From Apibacter raozihei (GTDB lineage Bacteria; Bacteroidota; Bacteroidia; Flavobacteriales; Weeksellaceae): a stretch of 64,000 nt of DNA. Under the pieces are notes generated by a model. That model saw only the letters and a list, made by a program, of their open reading frames with translations. It was not told the origin of the DNA and did not search any database. The translations under genes and the position numbers were made by a program. The stretch covers positions 868,001-932,000 of the forward strand of contig NZ_CP034930.1 of assembly GCF_004014855.1 (NCBI RefSeq). The letters are read 5' to 3'. Below, in pieces: positions 24,080-33,320 of this stretch; within the stretch, counting starts at the first letter, position 1, and the number at the start of each line of letters is the position of its first letter.

Positions 24080-24853
24080 TTATTTTTCAAGTTCTTTTTT
24101 CAAATTAGAAACTGCTGTTTTTATATCTGACGATTCTTTTAATAAGGATATAAACTTACTGCCGATAATAGCCCCATTTGCATTCGACTGAGCTGCTTCA
24201 AAAGTTTCTCTGTTAGATATTCCAAAACCTATTAATCTGGGATTCTTCAAATTCATTGAATTAATTCTCTGAAAGTATTCCTGTTTATTTGAATCAAAAC
24301 TTTTTTGTGCTCCCGTGGTTGAAGCTGAAGAAACCATATAAATAAAGCCATCGGTATGCTCGTCAATTAAACGGATTCTATCATCAGATGTTTCCGGTGT
24401 AATCAGCATAATAATCTTAATATCATATTTATCTGCGATTGCTTTATATTCTTTAATATAATCATCAAAAGGTAAATCCGGAATAATAGCCCCATCTGCA
24501 CCTACTTCATTGCATTTTTTGCAAAATTCTTCAAATCCATATTGCATAATAGGATTTAAATATCCCATCATGATCAATGGAAGATTAGCTTCTTTTCGTA
24601 CTTCTTTAATCTGTTCAAAAAGTAATTTCAAAGTCATCCCGTTTTGCAAAGCTTGAGTTCCGCTTTCCTGAATCGTAGGTCCATCCGCCATAGGATCTGA
24701 AAAAGGAATTCCTACCTCAATCAAATCAACCCCATTATTTTCAAGCTCTTTAATGATTTTTACTGTATCTTCTAATTTAGGATATCCTGCAGTAAAATAT
24801 ACGGAAAATATATTTTTTTGTTTCTTTTCAAACAATTTTTTTATTCGATTCAT
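24080..24853 (-). CDS. trpA: Tryptophan synthase alpha subunit
   Basis: Cleaves indole-3-glycerol phosphate to indole and glyceraldehyde 3-phosphate; indole is channelled to TrpB. 257 residues, a TIM barrel of normal length. The catalytic Glu and Asp lie in [16 protein letters not shown] (about 40-55), with the phosphate-binding GFGISNRET near residue 208. It is the last gene of the trp operon and overlaps trpF by 4 bases. Its partner trpB is about 8 kb upstream at the operon's front, which is unusual because trpB and trpA are normally adjacent. Confidence 0.96.
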
Positions 24854-25491
24854 AATCGTATCTGTTGTATAAATTTATTTACTAATTCAATATTTTTCAA
24901 TCCTGGTTCAATTTCAAAACGGCTGTTTAAATCTAACCCATACAATTGAGGGTGTTGAATTTTCTTTATATTCTCTATATCTTCAATTGAAATACCACCA
25001 CTCAGGAAAAAAGGTACTTCTCCTTTATAAGAATTCAGCACAGACCAATCGAATTTTTGTCCGGAACCTCCATGCTGAGAAGTTTTAGTATCAAATAAAA
25101 AGAAATCACACACTTCTTCATATTTTTCCGTGTGCTTTATGTCTGAACTATCTGAAATGCTAAATGCCTTAATTACTGCTGTTTCCGGAAAAACCTCCAG
25201 AAGATCTTCACAATATTCCGGACTTTCTTTTCCATGAAGCTGAACCGTATCAAGACTATATTTTTCTATATTATGAAAAAGTGAGCCTACCTGTTCATTT
25301 ACAAAAACTCCCACTTTATTTATATCATCTGATAAAAGATTCATTATTTCAGGATTTAAATTCTCTACATATCGAGGAGACTTCGGATAAAATATAAACC
25401 CTAAAAAATCAATAGGTAAAAAAGAAATATTTTCAATATTCTGAGGATTTTTCATCCCGCAAACTTTTATTTTCATTTTGTTTATGCCCAT
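24850..25491 (-). CDS. trpF: Phosphoribosylanthranilate isomerase
   Basis: Isomerises phosphoribosylanthranilate to CdRP, the third tryptophan-specific step. 213 residues from the ATG at 25491; an ATG at 25476 gives [10 protein letters not shown], the usual family N-terminus, and is an equally good start. The catalytic Cys is in KVCGMK and the catalytic Asp in [18 protein letters not shown] (about 137-154), with the phosphate loop FFLSGGIS near residue 175. It lies 1 base after trpC and overlaps trpA by 4 bases. Confidence 0.95.
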
Positions 25492-25492
25492 A

Positions 25493-26275
25493 TTAACCCA
25501 ATTCTGTAATAAATTCTTTCAAAGCTTTCCCCGGATCTTCCGTTTTCATAAAATTTTCTCCCATTAAAAATCCCTGATAACCCGCCTGCATTAATTCTTT
25601 TACAGTTTTTGAAGAAGACAGACCACTTTCGGAAATTTTAACAAATTCGTCGGGTATTTTATTTACCAGACTAAAAGAAACCTGTACATCTGTAACAAAT
25701 GTTTTCAAATTTCGGTTATTTACCCCTACAACATCCACCCATTCGCTGATATGTTTTAATTCGTCTTCATTGTGAATTTCAAGTAAAACATCCAATCCTA
25801 AATTTTTTGCAGTTACTGCCAATTCCTTAGTCTTTTCAACTGTAAGAGCTGCCGCAATCAATAAAATAGCACTGGCTCCATAAAGTTTAGCCTGATATAG
25901 CTGATACTCATCTACCATAAAATCTTTTCGAAGCAACGGTGTTTGAGTAAGACTTCCTGCTAATTCCAAATCCTGTAATGTCCCTCCAAAAAACTCTAAA
26001 TCTGTAAGCACAGAAATAGCGCTGGCTCCATTTTGTGAATAAAAAGGTATTACTTCCTCTATTCGGGCATTTTTAAAAATCCAGTCTTTTGAGGGTGATC
26101 TCCTTTTAAATTCGGAAATAATTCCGGTTGACGAATTTCGCAGTGATTCTTTAAAAGATTGTACTGGTTTTACTTGTTGCACCTTCTTTTCCAGCTCTTG
26201 CAAAGGAACTTGCTGCTTATGATTTTCTATTTCTACTTTTTTATTAGCTATTATCTTATCTAGTATGGTAGACAT
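25493..26275 (-). CDS. trpC: Indole-3-glycerol phosphate synthase
   Basis: Closes the indole ring by decarboxylating CdRP to indole-3-glycerol phosphate. 260 residues, not fused to trpF. Family motifs in order: SEFKRRSPSKDWI (about 54-66, catalytic Lys), SVLTDLEFFGG, LLRKDFMVDEYQL (about 110-122), VGVNNRNLKTF and SESGL. It starts 33 bases after the lipocalin-like gene and ends 1 base before trpF. Confidence 0.96.
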   Translation of the reverse strand: MSTILDKIIANKKVEIENHKQQVPLQELEKKVQQVKPVQSFKESLRNSSTGIISEFKRRSPSKDWIFKNARIEEVIPFYSQNGASAISVLTDLEFFGGTLQDLELAGSLTQTPLLRKDFMVDEYQLYQAKLYGASAILLIAAALTVEKTKELAVTAKNLGLDVLLEIHNEDELKHISEWVDVVGVNNRNLKTFVTDVQVSFSLVNKIPDEFVKISESGLSSSKTVKELMQAGYQGFLMGENFMKTEDPGKALKEFITELG

Positions 26276-26308
26276 TAATTATAGTATCTTTAAATTATTT
26301 TAAATATT

Positions 26309-26740
26309 TTATTTCTCCGAATCCTGGTAATCTAATCCTTCTATAAGTTTAGTATCTATAAATTCATAGTTGGAATTATTAAGTTCCAGATTCGTGCTGT
26401 CTAGCCTGAATTTCACATGCTGATCATCGAGTACCTCATAAAAATAGGTATCAGTTAATTTAGTATTAAAGTGGATTTCATAAAATTTCCCCCCTTCTGT
26501 CCACCATTCTCCTTTATCCACCAAAGAACTTCCTTCTCCATCTTTGTCAATAGTTACAAAAAGCATAAGAAAAGTACCATCATTAAATCGTTGCTGCACC
26601 CAATACCTTGACATTCCCTCTTCTTGATTTCCTTTTTCAGATCCCTGCCAGGTGCCAACAAGTCTTAAATCTCTTTCTTTTATCTGCGAATAACCTATAA
26701 CGGATGTTATAAAGAAAGTTGTTAAAAATAATAATTTCAT
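26309..26740 (-). CDS. Secreted lipocalin-like protein inside the trp operon
   Basis: 143 residues with a Sec signal peptide ending in GYSQ near residue 19. The mature part begins RDLRLVGTWQGSE, matching the G-x-W motif at the first strand of lipocalin/calycin-like barrels, and continues as alternating strands with many aromatic residues. No ligand site can be read. It sits between trpD and trpC with gaps of 20 and 33 bases on the same strand, so it should be transcribed with them, yet it has no evident role in a cytosolic pathway. Fold assignment is by pattern only. Confidence 0.72.
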   Translation of the reverse strand: MKLLFLTTFFITSVIGYSQIKERDLRLVGTWQGSEKGNQEEGMSRYWVQQRFNDGTFLMLFVTIDKDGEGSSLVDKGEWWTEGGKFYEIHFNTKLTDTYFYEVLDDQHVKFRLDSTNLELNNSNYEFIDTKLIEGLDYQDSEK

Positions 26741-26760
26741 ATGGATGATATTTATATTAC

Positions 26761-27759
26761 TTATGAGTTTAATTCTAAAAACTTAACAAACGTTTCTTTT
26801 GTTTTACCACTTTCTAAGGCTTCTCTGGCCTGGAAAAGGCATTCTTCAATTGATAATTGAGGGTTGATAGTCTGTATTGAAAAAGCTGAATTAGCTAATA
26901 CAGCATTTTTTTGAGCTATAGTAGCTTTATTATTTAAAACATTATCAAAAATTTGCGATGCTTCACAAGCTGTATTACCTCCGTCTAAGTCTTCCTGTTT
27001 ACATTTGGACAGACCTACCTCATCCGGTGAATAAATGGTTTCTCCCAGTTTGGTTATAACTTTAAAATTATCCGTTAAAGAAATTTCATCATAACCATCC
27101 AGACTATGTACTATGGAATAATCGCAGTCGGTGTTCTGGTATATATAATAGTAAAGACGAGCCATTCGAAGATTGAAAACCCCTAACATATTTCTTTTAG
27201 GTTTGATAGGGTTTACTATAGGTCCTAACATATTAAAAAAAGTACGCACCCCAAGAGCCTTCCTTATAGGCGCAACTATTTTCATGGCATCATTAAACAA
27301 TGGAGCGTGAAGATAGGCTATATTAAGTTGATCTAGTGATTTTTCCAGTTTACTAACCTCAGAAGTAAATTTAACTCCATGTTTTTCCATAACGTTGGAA
27401 GCTCCACTTACTGAAGTTGCTCCATAATTTCCATGTTTGGCAACTTTATATCCGGCACTTGCCACTACAAAGCAGGAAAGTGTAGATATATTAAATGTAT
27501 TTTTATTATCTCCACCGGTACCTACTATGTCTATCGGATTATACTTTTGCAAAGCACTTACATCTGCACATAAATTTAATAAGGCATCACTAAATCCAAA
27601 AAACTCATCAATACTTATGCTTCTCATTAAAAATACAGTAATAAAAGCAGCTATCTGAGATTCGTTATACTCTCCGGCAGCCATTTTAGTAAGTATTTCT
27701 TTTGCTTCGTCTCTATTTAAATATTGATGTTCAAATAATCTGTTTAATATCTGCTTCAT
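26761..27759 (-). CDS. trpD: Anthranilate phosphoribosyltransferase
   Basis: Joins anthranilate to PRPP, the second tryptophan-specific step. 332 residues, normal length, separate from trpG. The PRPP-binding GTGGDNKNTFNIST is at about 82-95, followed by KHGNYGATSVSGASNVMEKHGV, and the conserved NMLGPIVNP near residue 178. It starts 4 bases after the trpG stop and precedes the lipocalin-like gene by 20 bases. Confidence 0.96.
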   Translation of the reverse strand: MKQILNRLFEHQYLNRDEAKEILTKMAAGEYNESQIAAFITVFLMRSISIDEFFGFSDALLNLCADVSALQKYNPIDIVGTGGDNKNTFNISTLSCFVVASAGYKVAKHGNYGATSVSGASNVMEKHGVKFTSEVSKLEKSLDQLNIAYLHAPLFNDAMKIVAPIRKALGVRTFFNMLGPIVNPIKPKRNMLGVFNLRMARLYYYIYQNTDCDYSIVHSLDGYDEISLTDNFKVITKLGETIYSPDEVGLSKCKQEDLDGGNTACEASQIFDNVLNNKATIAQKNAVLANSAFSIQTINPQLSIEECLFQAREALESGKTKETFVKFLELNS

Positions 27760-27763
27760 AGAT

Positions 27764-28330
27764 TTAGTTTTCCAGGAAATTTTTAATCATTATTTTACCT
27801 TCCGGCGTCAGAATAGATTCCGGATGGAATTGCACCCCGTGAATATCATATTCTTTATGTTTTAAAGCCATAATCTGGTTATTTTCATCTACAGCTGTCA
27901 CGGTAAGGCTTTCCGGAAGATTTTCTCTGCTAACTATCCAGGAGTGGTAACGTCCAACCTGGATCGGGAATTCAATATTTTTAAATATATAATCCTCCTC
28001 CGTTATTTGAATCTCTGTAGCTATTCCATGATATACATCATCCAGATTAATCAACTGTGCTCCAAAACTTTCTCCGATTGCCTGCTCTCCCAGGCATACA
28101 CCTAAAATAGGTTTTTTGGATGCATATTCTTGAATTACCTGCAATAGTATTCCAGATTCAGAGGGTATTCCGGGACCAGGTGAAAGAATAATTTTATCGT
28201 ACTTTTCAATTTCTGGTATTGTAATCTGGTCATTTCTGTATACATCCACTTCCATATAACCTAGTTCTTTAACCATATGAACCAGGTTATATGTGAAGGA
28301 ATCATAATTGTCAAATATTAGTATTTTCAT
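27764..28330 (-). CDS. trpG: Anthranilate synthase component II (glutamine amidotransferase)
   Basis: Releases ammonia from glutamine for TrpE; the same subunit often also serves PabB in folate synthesis. 188 residues, a class I amidotransferase. The triad is visible: Cys in GVCLGEQAIGESFG (about residue 78), and His and Glu in VQFHPESILTPEG near the C-terminus. Oxyanion loop LSPGPGIP near residue 50. It begins 12 bases after the cysteine hydrolase gene and ends 4 bases before trpD. Confidence 0.95.
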   Translation of the reverse strand: MKILIFDNYDSFTYNLVHMVKELGYMEVDVYRNDQITIPEIEKYDKIILSPGPGIPSESGILLQVIQEYASKKPILGVCLGEQAIGESFGAQLINLDDVYHGIATEIQITEEDYIFKNIEFPIQVGRYHSWIVSRENLPESLTVTAVDENNQIMALKHKEYDIHGVQFHPESILTPEGKIMIKNFLEN

Positions 28331-28342
28331 TAATGATAACTA

Positions 28343-28885
28343 TTAGCTCTTTATATATTCATTGGCAGCTTTCACATCGGCATAATAGTATCCTAATGCT
28401 GATAAAAATGCTGTGTGTACCTGTTGTGCTGAAACTTTATTTCCTGATATTTCAAGTTCGCGAGTTGCGCAGGCATCTCCAATGAGAGTACAATCGTATC
28501 CCAAGTCTTTTGCTGCACGGGTTGTGGCATCTATACACATATGAGTCATCATACCACAAATAACCAGCTCTTTTACTTCCAGCTTCTGCAAATACTTTTG
28601 AAGATCGGTTTTGATAAAACTGTTAGGATAATACTTGGTTATCACTATTTCACCGTCTTTAGGTTTTACATTAGTATGAAACTCTGCTCCTTTGGTATAT
28701 GGAAGAAAAAATGTAGCATCCGGGCGTAATGCTATATGCTGTACATGAATAACCGGTAATCGATCTGATCTGAATTTTTCAAGTACTTTTTTCACATTTT
28801 CACTGGCTTCCAAAGCGCCTTCCAAAGTCATGGTTCCTCCTTCAAAATAATCATTTTGTACGTCTACAATAAGTAATGCTTTCAT
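28343..28885 (-). CDS. Isochorismatase-like cysteine hydrolase inside the trp operon
   Basis: 180 residues, a single isochorismatase-fold domain. The catalytic triad reads Asp8 (VDVQND), Lys84 (ITKYYPNSF) and Cys117 (GMMTHMCIDATTRAA); the cis-peptide GMMTH is standard. Such enzymes hydrolyse amides (nicotinamide, N-carbamoyl compounds, ureidoacrylate) or, without the Cys, isochorismate. With the Cys present an amidohydrolase is more likely. It lies 4 bases after trpE and 12 before trpG, so it is firmly in the operon. Substrate unknown; a link to chorismate or Trp metabolism is only inferred from position. Confidence 0.85.
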   Translation of the reverse strand: MKALLIVDVQNDYFEGGTMTLEGALEASENVKKVLEKFRSDRLPVIHVQHIALRPDATFFLPYTKGAEFHTNVKPKDGEIVITKYYPNSFIKTDLQKYLQKLEVKELVICGMMTHMCIDATTRAAKDLGYDCTLIGDACATRELEISGNKVSAQQVHTAFLSALGYYYADVKAANEYIKS

Positions 28886-28889
28886 ATTT

Positions 28890-30281
28890 TTAATTTTTTA
28901 ACGTTTCTGCTAAATCCACGGCTTTTTTTAATGCTCCCAGTTTATTATTCACTTCCTGAAGCTCAGCTTCCGGATCTGATTTGGAAACAATTCCTGCACC
29001 TGCCTGATAGTACAAAGTATTATTTTTACTTAAGAATGATCGTATGGTTATGGCCTGGTTCAAATCACCATCCAAACCAATATAACCTATGCATCCACCA
29101 TATATTCCTCTCATGTGCTTTTCTATATCTCGTATCAATTGCATGGCTCTTACTTTAGGAGCTCCGGAAAGAGTTCCGGCCGGAAAGGTATCCGCAAAAA
29201 CAGATATGCTGTCTTTACCTGGATCTACTGTTCCGCTTACTCTTGACACTAAATGAATAACATGAGAAAAATATTGTACGCTTTTATAAAAATCTACTTT
29301 TACATCATGGCAATTGCGGCTTAGATCATTTCGGGCTAAATCCACTAACATTACATGTTCTGCATTTTCTTTTTCGTCTTTTAGCAATTTCTCCGAAAGA
29401 ACTCTGTCTTTTTCATCGTCGCCAGTTCTTTTATAGGTTCCAGCAATCGGATCTATGTATGCCCTGCCTTTTGCTATTTTGCAATGTGTTTCCGGTGAAG
29501 AACCAAAAATACGGAAAGAGCCAAAGTCAAAATAAAATAAATAAGGAGATGGATTTACGGATCGTAAAGCCCGGTAAACTTTAAAGTCATCACCCGCAAA
29601 ATTTTGTGAATAACATCTTGAAGGTACAATTTGAAAAACATCTCCTCTTTTACAGTGTTCTATCCCTTTTCTCACAGATTCTCTATAATCTTCGTCTGTG
29701 ATGAAACTATTCTCAGGTCCTTTGATCTTAAAGTTATAAGATGCAAAATTGTTATTTAAAAGTAACGCTTCCAGCTGTTCCATTTTACTGGATTCTCCCT
29801 GTGGTACATTTTCAATAATAGTCAAATCATTCTTTAAATGATTAATAACTAATATAAATCTGTAAAAGATATAATATAACTCCGGAACTTCGGCATTTTC
29901 TAATTTAGTATTAACCGGATCAACCGCTTCAAAATAACGAATACTATCGTAAGATGTATAACCGAAAAAGCCATTTATTTTGGTAGGGTTATCACCTTTT
30001 ATATGAAAACTTTTTAAAAACTCGTCAAAAACTTCAGGCAGTGGTTTTTCTAACTCTTGTACCTGAGCTGCACCATTTACTTCGGTAGTTACCTGATGAT
30101 CCTGTACTATTATTTTAGCTAAGGGATCTAATGCGATAAATGAGGAACTGTCTTCTCCTCCATGAAAATCGGAACTTTCCAATAGTGCAGATTCTGGAAA
30201 GACATCTCTAATCTTTAAATAAAGACCTACAGGAGTTTGTAAATCAGCCAGTAATTTTTTCGTTTGTATTTGTATTTCCAT
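28890..30281 (-). CDS. trpE: Anthranilate synthase component I
   Basis: Converts chorismate and ammonia to anthranilate, the committed step. 463 residues. The N-terminal regulatory domain carries the LLESSDFHGGEDSSSF segment (about 34-49), corresponding to the Trp feedback site. The chorismate-binding domain has FQIVPSRCYSQ, PETHCKI, PIAGTYKRTGD, DLARNDLSR, and the C-terminal GCIGYIGLDGDLNQAITIRS. A PabB assignment is less likely given the trp neighbours. It starts 68 bases after the GH30 gene, within which I see no leader peptide or full promoter; two copies of ATCAAAAAGTA lie there. Confidence 0.95.
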   Translation of the reverse strand: MEIQIQTKKLLADLQTPVGLYLKIRDVFPESALLESSDFHGGEDSSSFIALDPLAKIIVQDHQVTTEVNGAAQVQELEKPLPEVFDEFLKSFHIKGDNPTKINGFFGYTSYDSIRYFEAVDPVNTKLENAEVPELYYIFYRFILVINHLKNDLTIIENVPQGESSKMEQLEALLLNNNFASYNFKIKGPENSFITDEDYRESVRKGIEHCKRGDVFQIVPSRCYSQNFAGDDFKVYRALRSVNPSPYLFYFDFGSFRIFGSSPETHCKIAKGRAYIDPIAGTYKRTGDDEKDRVLSEKLLKDEKENAEHVMLVDLARNDLSRNCHDVKVDFYKSVQYFSHVIHLVSRVSGTVDPGKDSISVFADTFPAGTLSGAPKVRAMQLIRDIEKHMRGIYGGCIGYIGLDGDLNQAITIRSFLSKNNTLYYQAGAGIVSKSDPEAELQEVNNKLGALKKAVDLAETLKN

Positions 30282-30349: not shown

Positions 30350-31801
30350 TTATAAAACCCATGTTGATATTGAATGTGCCTGGCTTTTTGCCGGTGAAGC
30401 TTTTCCAGCTATCCATAAATAGTAATCGTAATCTGAATCAGTTCTGTTTAAAACTACAACTACTAATTTTCCATCCGGGTTAAGAAAAGAGGTTGTTTCG
30501 AGCTGAGATCTGTTAGACGATGCTATTACCCTTCTCGCTCCTTTATTTATGTATTTAGAAAAATGTCCAATATACCAGTACGGATAGGTATAGTAAATTT
30601 TTCCTGTTTTTGTATCTGCATGAATGGGTGCGAAACAAAAATTATTTAAATGGTTAGGTCCTCCTTTTTCATCCAAAAGTACGTTCCAGTCCGTCCATGC
30701 AACAAACCCACTGTTTAAATCATTTAAAATATGGTGTCCGTAAAGTTCGCCTATAGAAATATCTTCTATTCTTGACATATCAAATTTTTCCTGACAGCCT
30801 TCAGTAAATAATAAATTAAGAGAAGGAAACGCTTGTTTTACTAACCGTTGATTATCGAATAAGGGCAAACTTTTTGTCCAGGTTTCATACCAGTGAAAAC
30901 CGGCACCCCAAACATATTTTGCAGCTTCTGAATCATTCATAATCGTTGATATATATTGATATGCCAAATCTCGATTATGATCCCATATAATAATTTTTTT
31001 ATCTTTTTTGCCTGCATTCCACAATTCTGGACCTAAATGGTATTTTAAAAAATCTCTTTCTTTTTCTGCTGTATATATAGTTGCTTCCCAGGGAGTCGCT
31101 GCCATTGGTTCATTCTGAATAGTAAGTCCCCAAACAGGTATACCTTCTTTTTCATAAGCGTCTATAAATTTTGTATAATATTTAGCCCAAACCGGATAAT
31201 ATTCTTTTTTCAATTCACCTCCTGCTAGCATCGAGTTGGTAGTTTTCATCCATGCTGGTGGAGACCAAGGACTAAAATAAAAGGTAAAATCACTTCCAAT
31301 GGCTTTCTGAGCTTCTTTTATCATCGGAATTTTATATTGTTTATCAACAGAAATATCAAAGGTTTTAAGATCTACATCGTTGTCTTTTATATACGTGTAG
31401 CTTTTACTTGAAAAATCACAACTATTCATATTGGTTCGAACTACCCGATATCCTAAACCGTCTTTGGAATCGTAATACGCTTTAATGATTTCCTTTTGTT
31501 TATCTTTTGGAAGTTTAGCATAAACTTCGGCTGATGCATCTGTTATAGCTCCTCCAAATCCAATAAACTCTTCAAATTGGTGGGTAGGATCTACAAAAAT
31601 ACTGATTTCGGTTTCCAGAGGCTGCGGTTTATATATAAATGGCTGGCCATTTGTAAGTTTGTTTTTTTGCTTATCTGCCTGTGATGTTGTGTATATACGT
31701 GCAGGCGAACTTTTTAAGTTAAATTTAACTTCTTTTATTTGTGCTTGTAACTGTGGTAGGACAAACATAAGCGAAAAAATAATCTTTACTGTTTTTCTCA
31801 T
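30350..31801 (-). CDS. GH30-family secreted glycoside hydrolase
   Basis: 483 residues with a Sec signal peptide ending in LQAQ near residue 21. A TIM-barrel GH30 enzyme plus C-terminal beta domain: GFGGAITDASAEVY (about 81-94), the acid/base Glu in WGLTIQNEPMAATPWE (about 224-239), and the nucleophile Glu in LLFTEGCQEKFD (about 327). These match glucosylceramidase and beta-1,6-glucanase subfamilies. No lipobox is seen. The gene sits between trpB (120-base gap) and trpE (68-base gap) on the same strand, interrupting the tryptophan operon. Substrate (fungal beta-1,6-glucan, glucosylceramide or other) cannot be fixed. Confidence 0.9.
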   Translation of the reverse strand: MRKTVKIIFSLMFVLPQLQAQIKEVKFNLKSSPARIYTTSQADKQKNKLTNGQPFIYKPQPLETEISIFVDPTHQFEEFIGFGGAITDASAEVYAKLPKDKQKEIIKAYYDSKDGLGYRVVRTNMNSCDFSSKSYTYIKDNDVDLKTFDISVDKQYKIPMIKEAQKAIGSDFTFYFSPWSPPAWMKTTNSMLAGGELKKEYYPVWAKYYTKFIDAYEKEGIPVWGLTIQNEPMAATPWEATIYTAEKERDFLKYHLGPELWNAGKKDKKIIIWDHNRDLAYQYISTIMNDSEAAKYVWGAGFHWYETWTKSLPLFDNQRLVKQAFPSLNLLFTEGCQEKFDMSRIEDISIGELYGHHILNDLNSGFVAWTDWNVLLDEKGGPNHLNNFCFAPIHADTKTGKIYYTYPYWYIGHFSKYINKGARRVIASSNRSQLETTSFLNPDGKLVVVVLNRTDSDYDYYLWIAGKASPAKSQAHSISTWVL

Positions 31802-31921: not shown

Positions 31922-33109
31922 CTACAGCTCATTTGCATGTTTTATATAGGTTTCCATATCTTTATCTCCTCTGCCTGACAAACATAAAACAACTACATCT
32001 TCCGGTAAAAATTCTTTTTTAGCCAGAACCCCCAGTGCATGCGCTGATTCAATTGCCGGGATAATTCCTTCTAGCTCGGTAAGTTCAAAGGCTGCTGCAA
32101 GTGCTTCATCATCTGAAACAGCCAGAACTTCTGATCTGTTTGTTTGGGCTAAATGTGCATGCATAGGACCTATTCCCGGATAATCCAATCCCGCAGAAAT
32201 AGAATAAGGCTCTTCAATCTGCCCATCATCTGATTGCATTAATAAGGTCTTACTTCCATGAATAATACCCAGCTTACCTAAATGGATAGTTGCGGCAGAT
32301 TCTCCCGAATTAATACCTTTACCTGCTGCTTCGGCCAAAACAATTTTCACCTCTTCTTCATCCAGAAAATGATAGATGGTACCTGCTGCATTACTACCTC
32401 CGCCCACGCAGGCAATGAGATAATCAGGAACTTCTCGGCCTTCTTTTTCTTTTAATTGTTTTCTTATTTCTTCGCTTATTACGGATTGTAATCTCGCAAC
32501 CATGTCCGGATAAGGATGAGGACCAACAGTAGAGCCTATTATGTAATAAGTATTAGAAGGGTTTGAACACCAATCACGAATGGCCTCATTGGTAGCATCT
32601 TTCAACGTCATATTCCCACTGGTTACTGCCACAACTTTAGCACCCAGCATCTGCATCTTTTCAACGTTAAGTTTCTGTCTTTCTACATCAGTTGCTCCCA
32701 TGTAAACAATACATTCCATATTCATAAGTGCACAAACCGTTGCAGTAGCCACCCCGTGTTGTCCTGCGCCTGTTTCGGCTATAATTCTTGTTTTCCCCAT
32801 TCTTCTGGCTAATAAAATCTGACCAATGGTATTGTTTATCTTATGAGCTCCGGTATGATTGAGATCTTCTCTTTTTAAATAAATCTTACAACCATATTTA
32901 TTAGAAAGCCGTTGGGCCAGATATAAAGGTGAAGGACGTCCTACATAATCTTGTAATAAACCGTAATATTCTTTTTTGAATTCAGGATCTTCAATAACTT
33001 TTAAATAATTTGTTTTCAGGTTTTCTACATTATCGTACAAAATTTCAGGAATATATGCTCCTCCGAATTCACCATAAAAACCGTTTTGATCAACATTATA
33101 CTTTTGCAT
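31922..33109 (-). CDS. trpB: Tryptophan synthase beta subunit
   Basis: PLP enzyme joining indole and serine to make tryptophan. 395 residues, the TrpB1 type. NFGEFGGAY-like N-terminus ([12 protein letters not shown]), PLP lysine in [10 protein letters not shown] near residue 86, the catalytic Glu and conserved [12 protein letters not shown] (about 109-120), phosphate-binding GGGSNAAG (about 232-239), and C-terminal LSGRGDKD. It is the first structural gene after the attenuator at 33135-33269 and is separated from trpA by the whole operon, a rearranged order. Confidence 0.97.
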
Positions 33110-33134: not shown

Positions 33135-33164
33135 CTAAAAAAGCCTATCGTGAGTACGATAGGC
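33135..33164 (-). terminator. trp attenuator terminator hairpin
   Basis: On the minus strand a 9-base-pair stem GCCTATCGT/ACGATAGGC closes a 4-base ACTC loop and is followed by six Ts. It lies 49 bases after the leader-peptide stop and 26 bases before trpB. Its loop and 3' arm contain CTCACGA, complementary to TCGTGAG at the leader's Ser-stop codons (33218-33212). The T-run can pair with AAAAAG at 33224-33219. An exclusive antiterminator can therefore form. Confidence 0.88.
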
Positions 33165-33212
33165 CTTTAAATTTTTGTTTTTTATTTTAATTCAACAAAT
33201 AGATCAGCTTGC

Positions 33213-33269
33213 TCACGACTTTTTAAGTTCTGAGTTCCACCACCATGATATATTTGTTATTAATTTCAT
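33213..33269 (-). CDS. trpL: trp operon leader peptide (three tandem Trp codons)
   Basis: An 18-codon frame, MKLITNISWWWNSELKKS, starts at the ATG at 33269 and stops at TGA 33215-33213. Three consecutive TGG codons (33245-33237) in so short a frame between a strong promoter and an intrinsic terminator are the signature of ribosome-mediated attenuation. When charged tRNA-Trp is scarce the ribosome should stall at these codons, leaving the downstream AAAAAGTCGTGAG free to pair with the terminator's 3' side. When Trp is plentiful the ribosome reaches the stop codon, covers that segment, and the terminator forms. Confidence 0.88.
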   Translation of the reverse strand: MKLITNISWWWNSELKKS

Positions 33270-33289
33270 TTCTTTTTTCTTTACATGAG

Positions 33290-33320
33290 CAAAGTTATTA
33301 TTTTTTTTTTAGTAAACAAA
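33290..33320 (-). promoter_or_regulatory. Promoter of the trp operon
   Basis: Minus-strand TTTG at 33320-33317, then 19 bases containing a ten-A run, then TAACTTTG at 33297-33290: a full Bacteroidota consensus. The transcript should start near 33284, about 15 bases before the leader-peptide ATG. Confidence 0.8.

Follow-up and report, generated by a model that had tools for sequence, protein, structure and literature searches.

In the E. coli trp attenuator, a leader peptide with tandem Trp codons is followed by an intrinsic terminator, and ribosome stalling chooses between this terminator and an antiterminator made of the terminator 5' arm and a segment past the stop codon. Classical attenuators likewise pair with the terminator 5' arm. 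The trp locus of Apibacter raozihei described here (within a 64,000-nucleotide stretch of contig NZ_CP034930.1, hereafter the window) shares the tandem-Trp-codon leader peptide and the terminator behind it. However, the predicted partner is the terminator loop plus 3' arm instead of the 5' arm, and the window's pairing arm contains the stop codon itself.

In Bacteroidota, Rfam holds a 'Bacteroidete tryptophan peptide leader RNA' (Bacteroid-trp, RF01692), which a 2010 paper lists among cis-regulatory motifs, with no mechanism in the accessible part of the text (Weinberg et al. 2010, PMC2864571). It was placed before the trp operon of Flavobacterium psychrophilum in 2019, where attenuation was suggested and discussed together with the leader mechanism of E. 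coli (PMC6414381). A 2021 transcriptome study of F. psychrophilum found 'strong clues' for leader-peptide attenuation before amino-acid operons, the words trp and tryptophan being absent from its main text (PMC9723704). Both studies hold the same leader-peptide attenuation idea as that considered here, and no antiterminator pairing is given in the accessible parts of either. A trp peptide-leader RNA in Bacteroidota is an already published kind. Since Bacteroid-trp and leader-peptide attenuation are both in print, an attenuator at this locus is not new as a headline, and the initial annotation of the locus, which was made from its sequence, overstated the novelty of such a leader in this phylum.

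Two other systems invite comparison. In the fhsA motif, pairing between the terminator stem-loop and an upstream hairpin has likewise been suggested to block the terminator; unlike the trp locus, this motif is a riboswitch candidate, a leader peptide being unmentioned in the accessible part of the paper (PMC11109978). The trpB motif (RF04312), reported there from Firmicutes and Fusobacteria (PMC11109978), resembles the trp locus in that it sometimes precedes trpB and has a terminator. As an identification of the locus it was rejected (24 bits against a cut-off of 59).

Leader anatomy and kinship with Bacteroid-trp

The features of the locus are collected in Table 1. What the initial annotation had described at 33135..33320 was confirmed as an observation: its positions for the promoter, TCGTGAG and CTCACGA are right, and the 9-bp stem, the T6 run and the exact complementarity are all found on the minus strand. 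Its interpretation is partly supported. A pattern scan reports the hairpin on the plus strand only. The leader stop codon is separated from the trpB start by 103 nt, and the leader RNA folds better than its own shuffles (z = −4.69; equalled by 0 of 200). No TrpR or TRAP gene (PF01371, PF02081) was detected in the A. raozihei genome (0/1 each), where positive controls were matched; control by either protein was rejected on this ground, in agreement with the earlier proposal of a switch without a separate Trp-sensing protein.

Table 1. Features of the trp leader and operon (positions in the window)
Feature	Position	Strand	Remarks
Promoter TTTG-N19-TAACTTTG	33290..33320	-	exact match to Bacteroidota-type TTTG-N19-TAnnTTTG
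Leader ORF MKLITNISWWWNSELKKS	33213..33269	-	18 codons and stop
Three tandem TGG codons (WWW)	33245-33237	-	
Leader hairpin	33193..33259	-	predicted fold; outer arms 33259-33251 / 33201-33193; inner hairpin 33234-33212
Candidate antiterminator arm GUCGUGAG (DNA GTCGTGAG)	33212..33219	-	leader ORF end plus one base; stop codon UGA (33215-33213) inside
TCGTGAG	33218-33212	-	exact complement of CTCACGA, 33154-33148
Intrinsic terminator hairpin GCCUAUCGU-ACUC-ACGAUAGGC	33143..33164	-	stem 33164-33156 / 33151-33143, 9 bp; loop 33155-33152
CUCACGA, terminator loop and upper 3' arm	33148..33154	-	predicted target of antiterminator arm
U6 tract of terminator	33137..33142	-	read from sequence
trpB, first gene past leader	31922..33109	-	PF00291
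Further trp genes	24080..30281	-	trpE, trpG and trpD consistent with Pfam matches; presumably also trpC, trpF and trpA, named from translations; other genes interspersed
Glycosyl hydrolase family 30 gene	30350-31801	-	interspersed among trp genes
Isochorismatase-domain gene	28343-28885	-	between trp genes
Small protein	26309-26740	-	between trp genes; no Pfam match

The RF01692 model matches positions 33292-33158 at 44.9 bits, short of the curated cut-off of 49, the next-best match in the same genome scoring 25.4 bits. Within the genus, matches at E ≤ 1 were obtained in 9/9 genomes examined, 3 of them over the cut-off. At E ≤ 0.001 and with stricter filters, matches were found in 37 of 148 family, 47 of 296 order and 15 of 295 class genomes, the sets scanned at the genus, family, order and class levels being overlapping ones. 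The cut-off was exceeded by 7 of the 8 relatives scanned. The window leader shares two features of RF01692, at least two tandem Trp codons (WWW) and a position before trp genes. Its predicted hairpin spans the stretch of the RF01692 hairpin, but 16 positions there are marked as non-standard pairs in the cmscan alignment. When loci were fetched by TrpB, with no RNA model involved (80 kept relatives, 74–90% identity), a tandem-Trp leader was found in 72 of the 80 by the ATG rule and in three more on reading (L044, L047, L062). With tandem UGG codons, start of the terminator and association with trp genes in common, and a leader hairpin predicted over the corresponding stretch, we regard the window leader, on sequence and layout, as a homologue of Bacteroid-trp below the formal membership score. 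The model stops inside the terminator 5' arm and draws no pairing between leader end and terminator loop.

Predicted pairing of the leader end with the terminator loop

The comparison started from 174 loci (L002–L175), 158 of which have a tandem-Trp ORF with an ATG start. Removal of L077 (spurious) and of L076, L101, L103 and L154 (no terminator by the rule used) left 153 rows, 136 of them distinct. Of these, 109 were scored and 27 set aside: 14 rows of genera g21 and g28, 8 of g26, 1 of g22, L164 (g19), and L157, L159 and L175, which were left outside the pairing scores; this grouping was made post hoc, on sequences already inspected. Leaders lacking an in-frame ATG (L021, L044, L047, L062, L116, L117 and L118) are outside the 109 and were examined by eye. 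The leader alignment was built blind to pairing, and its anchor rule was altered for all rows because three seemed mis-anchored, whereupon three rows shifted.

When the window's spacer was dinucleotide-shuffled 1000 times, a 7-nt complement to some part of the terminator arose in 374 cases, and one to the apical 11 terminator bases in 4. Because 7-nt matches are so common in shuffles, the single sequence of the window is only suggestive, and it is conservation that makes the case. The frequency of chance matches is also what could be said for a plain terminator of the upstream unit preceded by a chance small ORF. We hold that explanation to be so improbable as to be negligible, since promoter, tandem Trp codons, their order and the pairing all recur in relatives. 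A promoter match (spacer 17–21) at most 75 nt upstream of the leader ATG is present in 71 of the 109 leaders, against none of the 109 when each was shuffled once. Within the genus, all 9 genomes examined have tandem Trp codons (WWW in 7, WW in 2) and keep 6–9 contiguous pairs between leader end and terminator (G-U counted, best register), so that conservation in close relatives, on which the initial annotation had staked its reading, did hold. In three leaders of the genus (L116–L118), pair 2 is C-G where the window has U-A, both sides having changed.

Conservation extends beyond the genus. In most of the 109 leaders the leader end follows the consensus GUCGURAG, and it faces (C/A/U)-(U/C)-(C/U)-(A/G)-C-G-(A/G)-(C/U) across the terminator's loop and upper 3' arm. 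Paired cells number 776 of 872; when terminators were permuted among leaders the mean was 728.5 and the maximum 744 (1000 permutations). The paired fraction is 0.89 in register and 0.23–0.50 with the partner slid. Thirty rows, hand-picked from the 109 for diversity and including none of those with A opposite C at pair 7, were counted separately: 93.3% of their cells pair (17–67% when slid). Three measures, namely the number of paired cells, the number of cells changed on both sides and the covariation score, beat 500 of 500 shuffles. However, the numbers of pairs and of pair types in these rows were not above shuffles, 396 of 500 reaching each.

Co-variation is found at pair 6 above all, which joins the middle stop-codon base (where the stop lies there) to a loop base and is G-C in 63 leaders, A-U in 42 and neither in 4. 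Its score (G = 130.6) is the highest of 180 column pairs and was reached in 0 of 2000 tree-aware simulations on the leader tree. The second-highest value, 102.9, belongs to an adjacent, never-pairing combination (leader 6 with terminator 5), from which it follows that relatedness inflates G. On the TrpB tree (71 rows), each of the 3 leader changes at pair 6 shares a branch with a change in the terminator loop, and again 0 of 2000 simulations attain the G observed there. Two-sided changes at this pair number 8 on the tree of short leaders and 3 on the TrpB tree; the lower number is the one used. Total paired cells exceed expectation on the leader tree (776 against a null maximum of 774; 0/2000) but lie within the null on the TrpB tree (520/568; mean 502.4, sd 23.6, maximum 544). 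On the latter tree pair 8 is unremarkable (411/2000), and the signal at pair 3 comes from joint loss of pairing.

Pairs 1–5 are partly implied by the terminator stem, since the leader GUCGU resembles the terminator 5' arm. As read from the alignment, loop pairs 6–8 are the independent evidence for pairing, pair 7 being A opposite C in 16 of 109 leaders and pair 8 being unpaired in 31. The evidence for base pairing lies mainly in pair 6, the conserved loop and the groups of variant geometry described below. The loop base that co-varies with the element also bears on the idea that the leader end is conserved for its own hairpin, with terminator complementarity as a by-product. In keeping with that idea, the element pairs with an upstream CUYACAACU-like arm (element base 6 in 61 of 71 AACT-anchored rows, G-U counted), and the RF01692 model draws the leader hairpin and no terminator pairing. 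The co-varying terminator loop base and the retention of loop pairing with different sequences in g21, g28 and some termite-gut lineages make it quite improbable.

It was also considered whether the leader peptide itself matters, through arrest in the exit tunnel. Leader C-termini are alike within genera, but peptide ends vary widely overall, and the element is retained even where the ORF ends sooner or passes through it in a different reading frame. We judge peptide arrest very improbable, and a constraint at the peptide level on the leader end was rejected from the divergent C-termini together with the kept element. The stop codon occupies element bases 5–7 in 91 of 109 leaders and lies elsewhere in 18. 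In six leaders (L068, L081, L083, L088, L095, L110) the ORF reads through and stops 27–36 nt past the element start, the element being kept.

The initial annotation had also extended the pairing by AAAAAG, which lies immediately 5' of TCG in the window leader and could pair with the terminator C+T5. This extension is not conserved, being present in 7 of 109 leaders, that of the window included. No prior description of the pairing between leader end and terminator loop was found in the passages of open-licence main text that were examined.

Predicted folds and a proposed mechanism for the switch

Folding was followed at the point where CUCACGA has just been transcribed. When a ribosome occupies Trp codon 1 or 3 of the window leader, the central antiterminator pairs have a probability of ~0.99. 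This falls to 0.001 in free RNA and to 0 when the ribosome has reached the stop codon, where absence of the helix is largely by construction, the element being masked. In the stalled state the main helix of the window is formed with the loop and 3' arm. Across the 109 leaders, the helix is predicted (a pair with probability >0.5) in 104 with a stalled ribosome and in 25 as free RNA; in those 25, the element is not predicted to be hidden. The ribosome-position logic put forward for this locus therefore holds in folding, with the reservation about masking just given. However, the two-state description omitted a third situation, that of untranslated window RNA, in which the leader hairpin is predicted to hide the antiterminator arm. 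Not all relatives show this hairpin: RNAalifold recovers its outer and inner parts in the Dysgonomonas/genus group (n = 13), the inner part only in the Bacteroidales group (n = 30), and neither part in the Flavobacteriaceae group (n = 23).

The proposal that a stalled ribosome blocks the terminator stood in that the helix is predicted to form just before the terminator hairpin closes. It did not stand at equilibrium, where completion of the 3' arm favours the terminator in every state, the stalled ribosome included (window). Because the finished terminator wins at equilibrium, the switch would have to be kinetic, acting during passage of the polymerase over the U tract. In 95 of 109 leaders, either 17 or 20 nt separate the element from the last Trp codon (17 nt in the window), which places it just outside the footprint of a ribosome stalled there.

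We consider it likely that transcription of the trp operon is attenuated here in a ribosome-mediated manner, by a homologue of Bacteroid-trp whose stop-codon region pairs with the terminator loop. What the comparison shows is its anatomy, conservation and co-variation, together with the predicted folds; from these we infer that it would depend on Trp, terminate transcription and act by a kinetic blocking step, as follows: (i) at low charged tRNA-Trp, a ribosome would stall on the UGG codons, opening the leader hairpin and leaving GUCGUGAG uncovered; (ii) the element would then capture the nascent terminator loop together with the beginning of the 3' arm, blocking terminator nucleation so that trpB onward would be transcribed; (iii) with sufficient Trp, a ribosome at the stop codon, inside the element, would cover it and the terminator would form; and (iv) in the absence of translation, the leader hairpin would hide the element and the terminator would likewise form. 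Capture of a loop is plausible in that terminator nucleation has been observed next to the apical loop in a ppGpp riboswitch, according to the accessible part of that report (PMC10687018). The RF01692 homologue thus probably has an antiterminator that its Rfam model lacks, namely the stop-codon region paired with the terminator loop.

Variant geometries, His leaders and implications

Among the rows set aside, all 14 distinct leaders of g21 and g28 pair a GUUGGUUC-like with a GAACCGAC-like sequence, forming 7 or 8 of 8 pairs, and L020 of this group shows a two-sided change. A different arrangement was found in g26 (8 distinct leaders) and g22 (1), where UCAAAGUCUU is complementary to AAGACUUUGA in the terminator 5' arm, a 10-bp match present in 9/9 (L018, L019, L022, L025, L027, L030, L031, L162, L165). 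This match ends 18 nt before the stop codon, and in the predictions the helix persists when a ribosome has reached the stop. L164 (g19), grouped with the 5'-arm rows, showed no 5'-arm pairing on checking.

Outside the window, the A. raozihei genome has a His leader, MTFTHLHHHHLRSCKQAS followed by a stop, and a terminator before hisG, the gene being named from its translation (L176 1483-1750, plus strand; G000:C1 near 425,750). The end of this leader, CAGGCG, is complementary to CGCCUG in the top of the 5' arm and the loop, and relatives have similar matches. Of 30 loci examined, 21 gave a His leader and a terminator, and in 21/21 the best leader-end match (5–10 bp) is at the top of the 5' arm, with loop bases included in 16. 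As the match was sought without a control, it counts as a lead rather than a test.

These cases bear on whether the attenuator is real but works through another antiterminator helix (e.g. one with the 5' arm), the pairing of leader end and loop merely tuning timing or pausing. Classical precedent, the 10-bp matches of g26 and g22, and the His leaders of the same family, which pair at the 5'-arm top, all point that way. However, when the binding of the 20 nt around the element (rather than of the whole spacer) was computed, the loop and 3' arm were preferred over the 5' arm in 96 of 109 leaders, with medians of −11.4 and −4.3 kcal/mol, respectively. We consider such a helix unlikely as the working antiterminator, and retain the pairing of the stop-codon region with the terminator loop.

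On a wider scale, the odds seem to us even that the trp leaders belong to a loop-first attenuator class of Bacteroidales and Flavobacteriales. In such a class, the stop-codon region would serve as the antiterminator strand and capture the loop before nucleation, and the identity of the stop (UGA/UAA) would co-evolve with the loop base. In His leaders of the same family, the leader end would instead pair at the 5'-arm top, in most cases with loop bases included, and two genera would have rewired the trp switch to the classical 5' arm.

The co-varying helix supplies a candidate antiterminator, of which there is none in the Bacteroid-trp model or the open-licence literature searched. It ties the choice of stop codon to the terminator loop, and makes the mechanism testable by two-base compensatory mutants. 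A further suggestion is that, for antitermination, a block at the nucleating loop can suffice in place of one at the 5' arm, and that the loop and 5'-arm geometries can replace each other in evolution.
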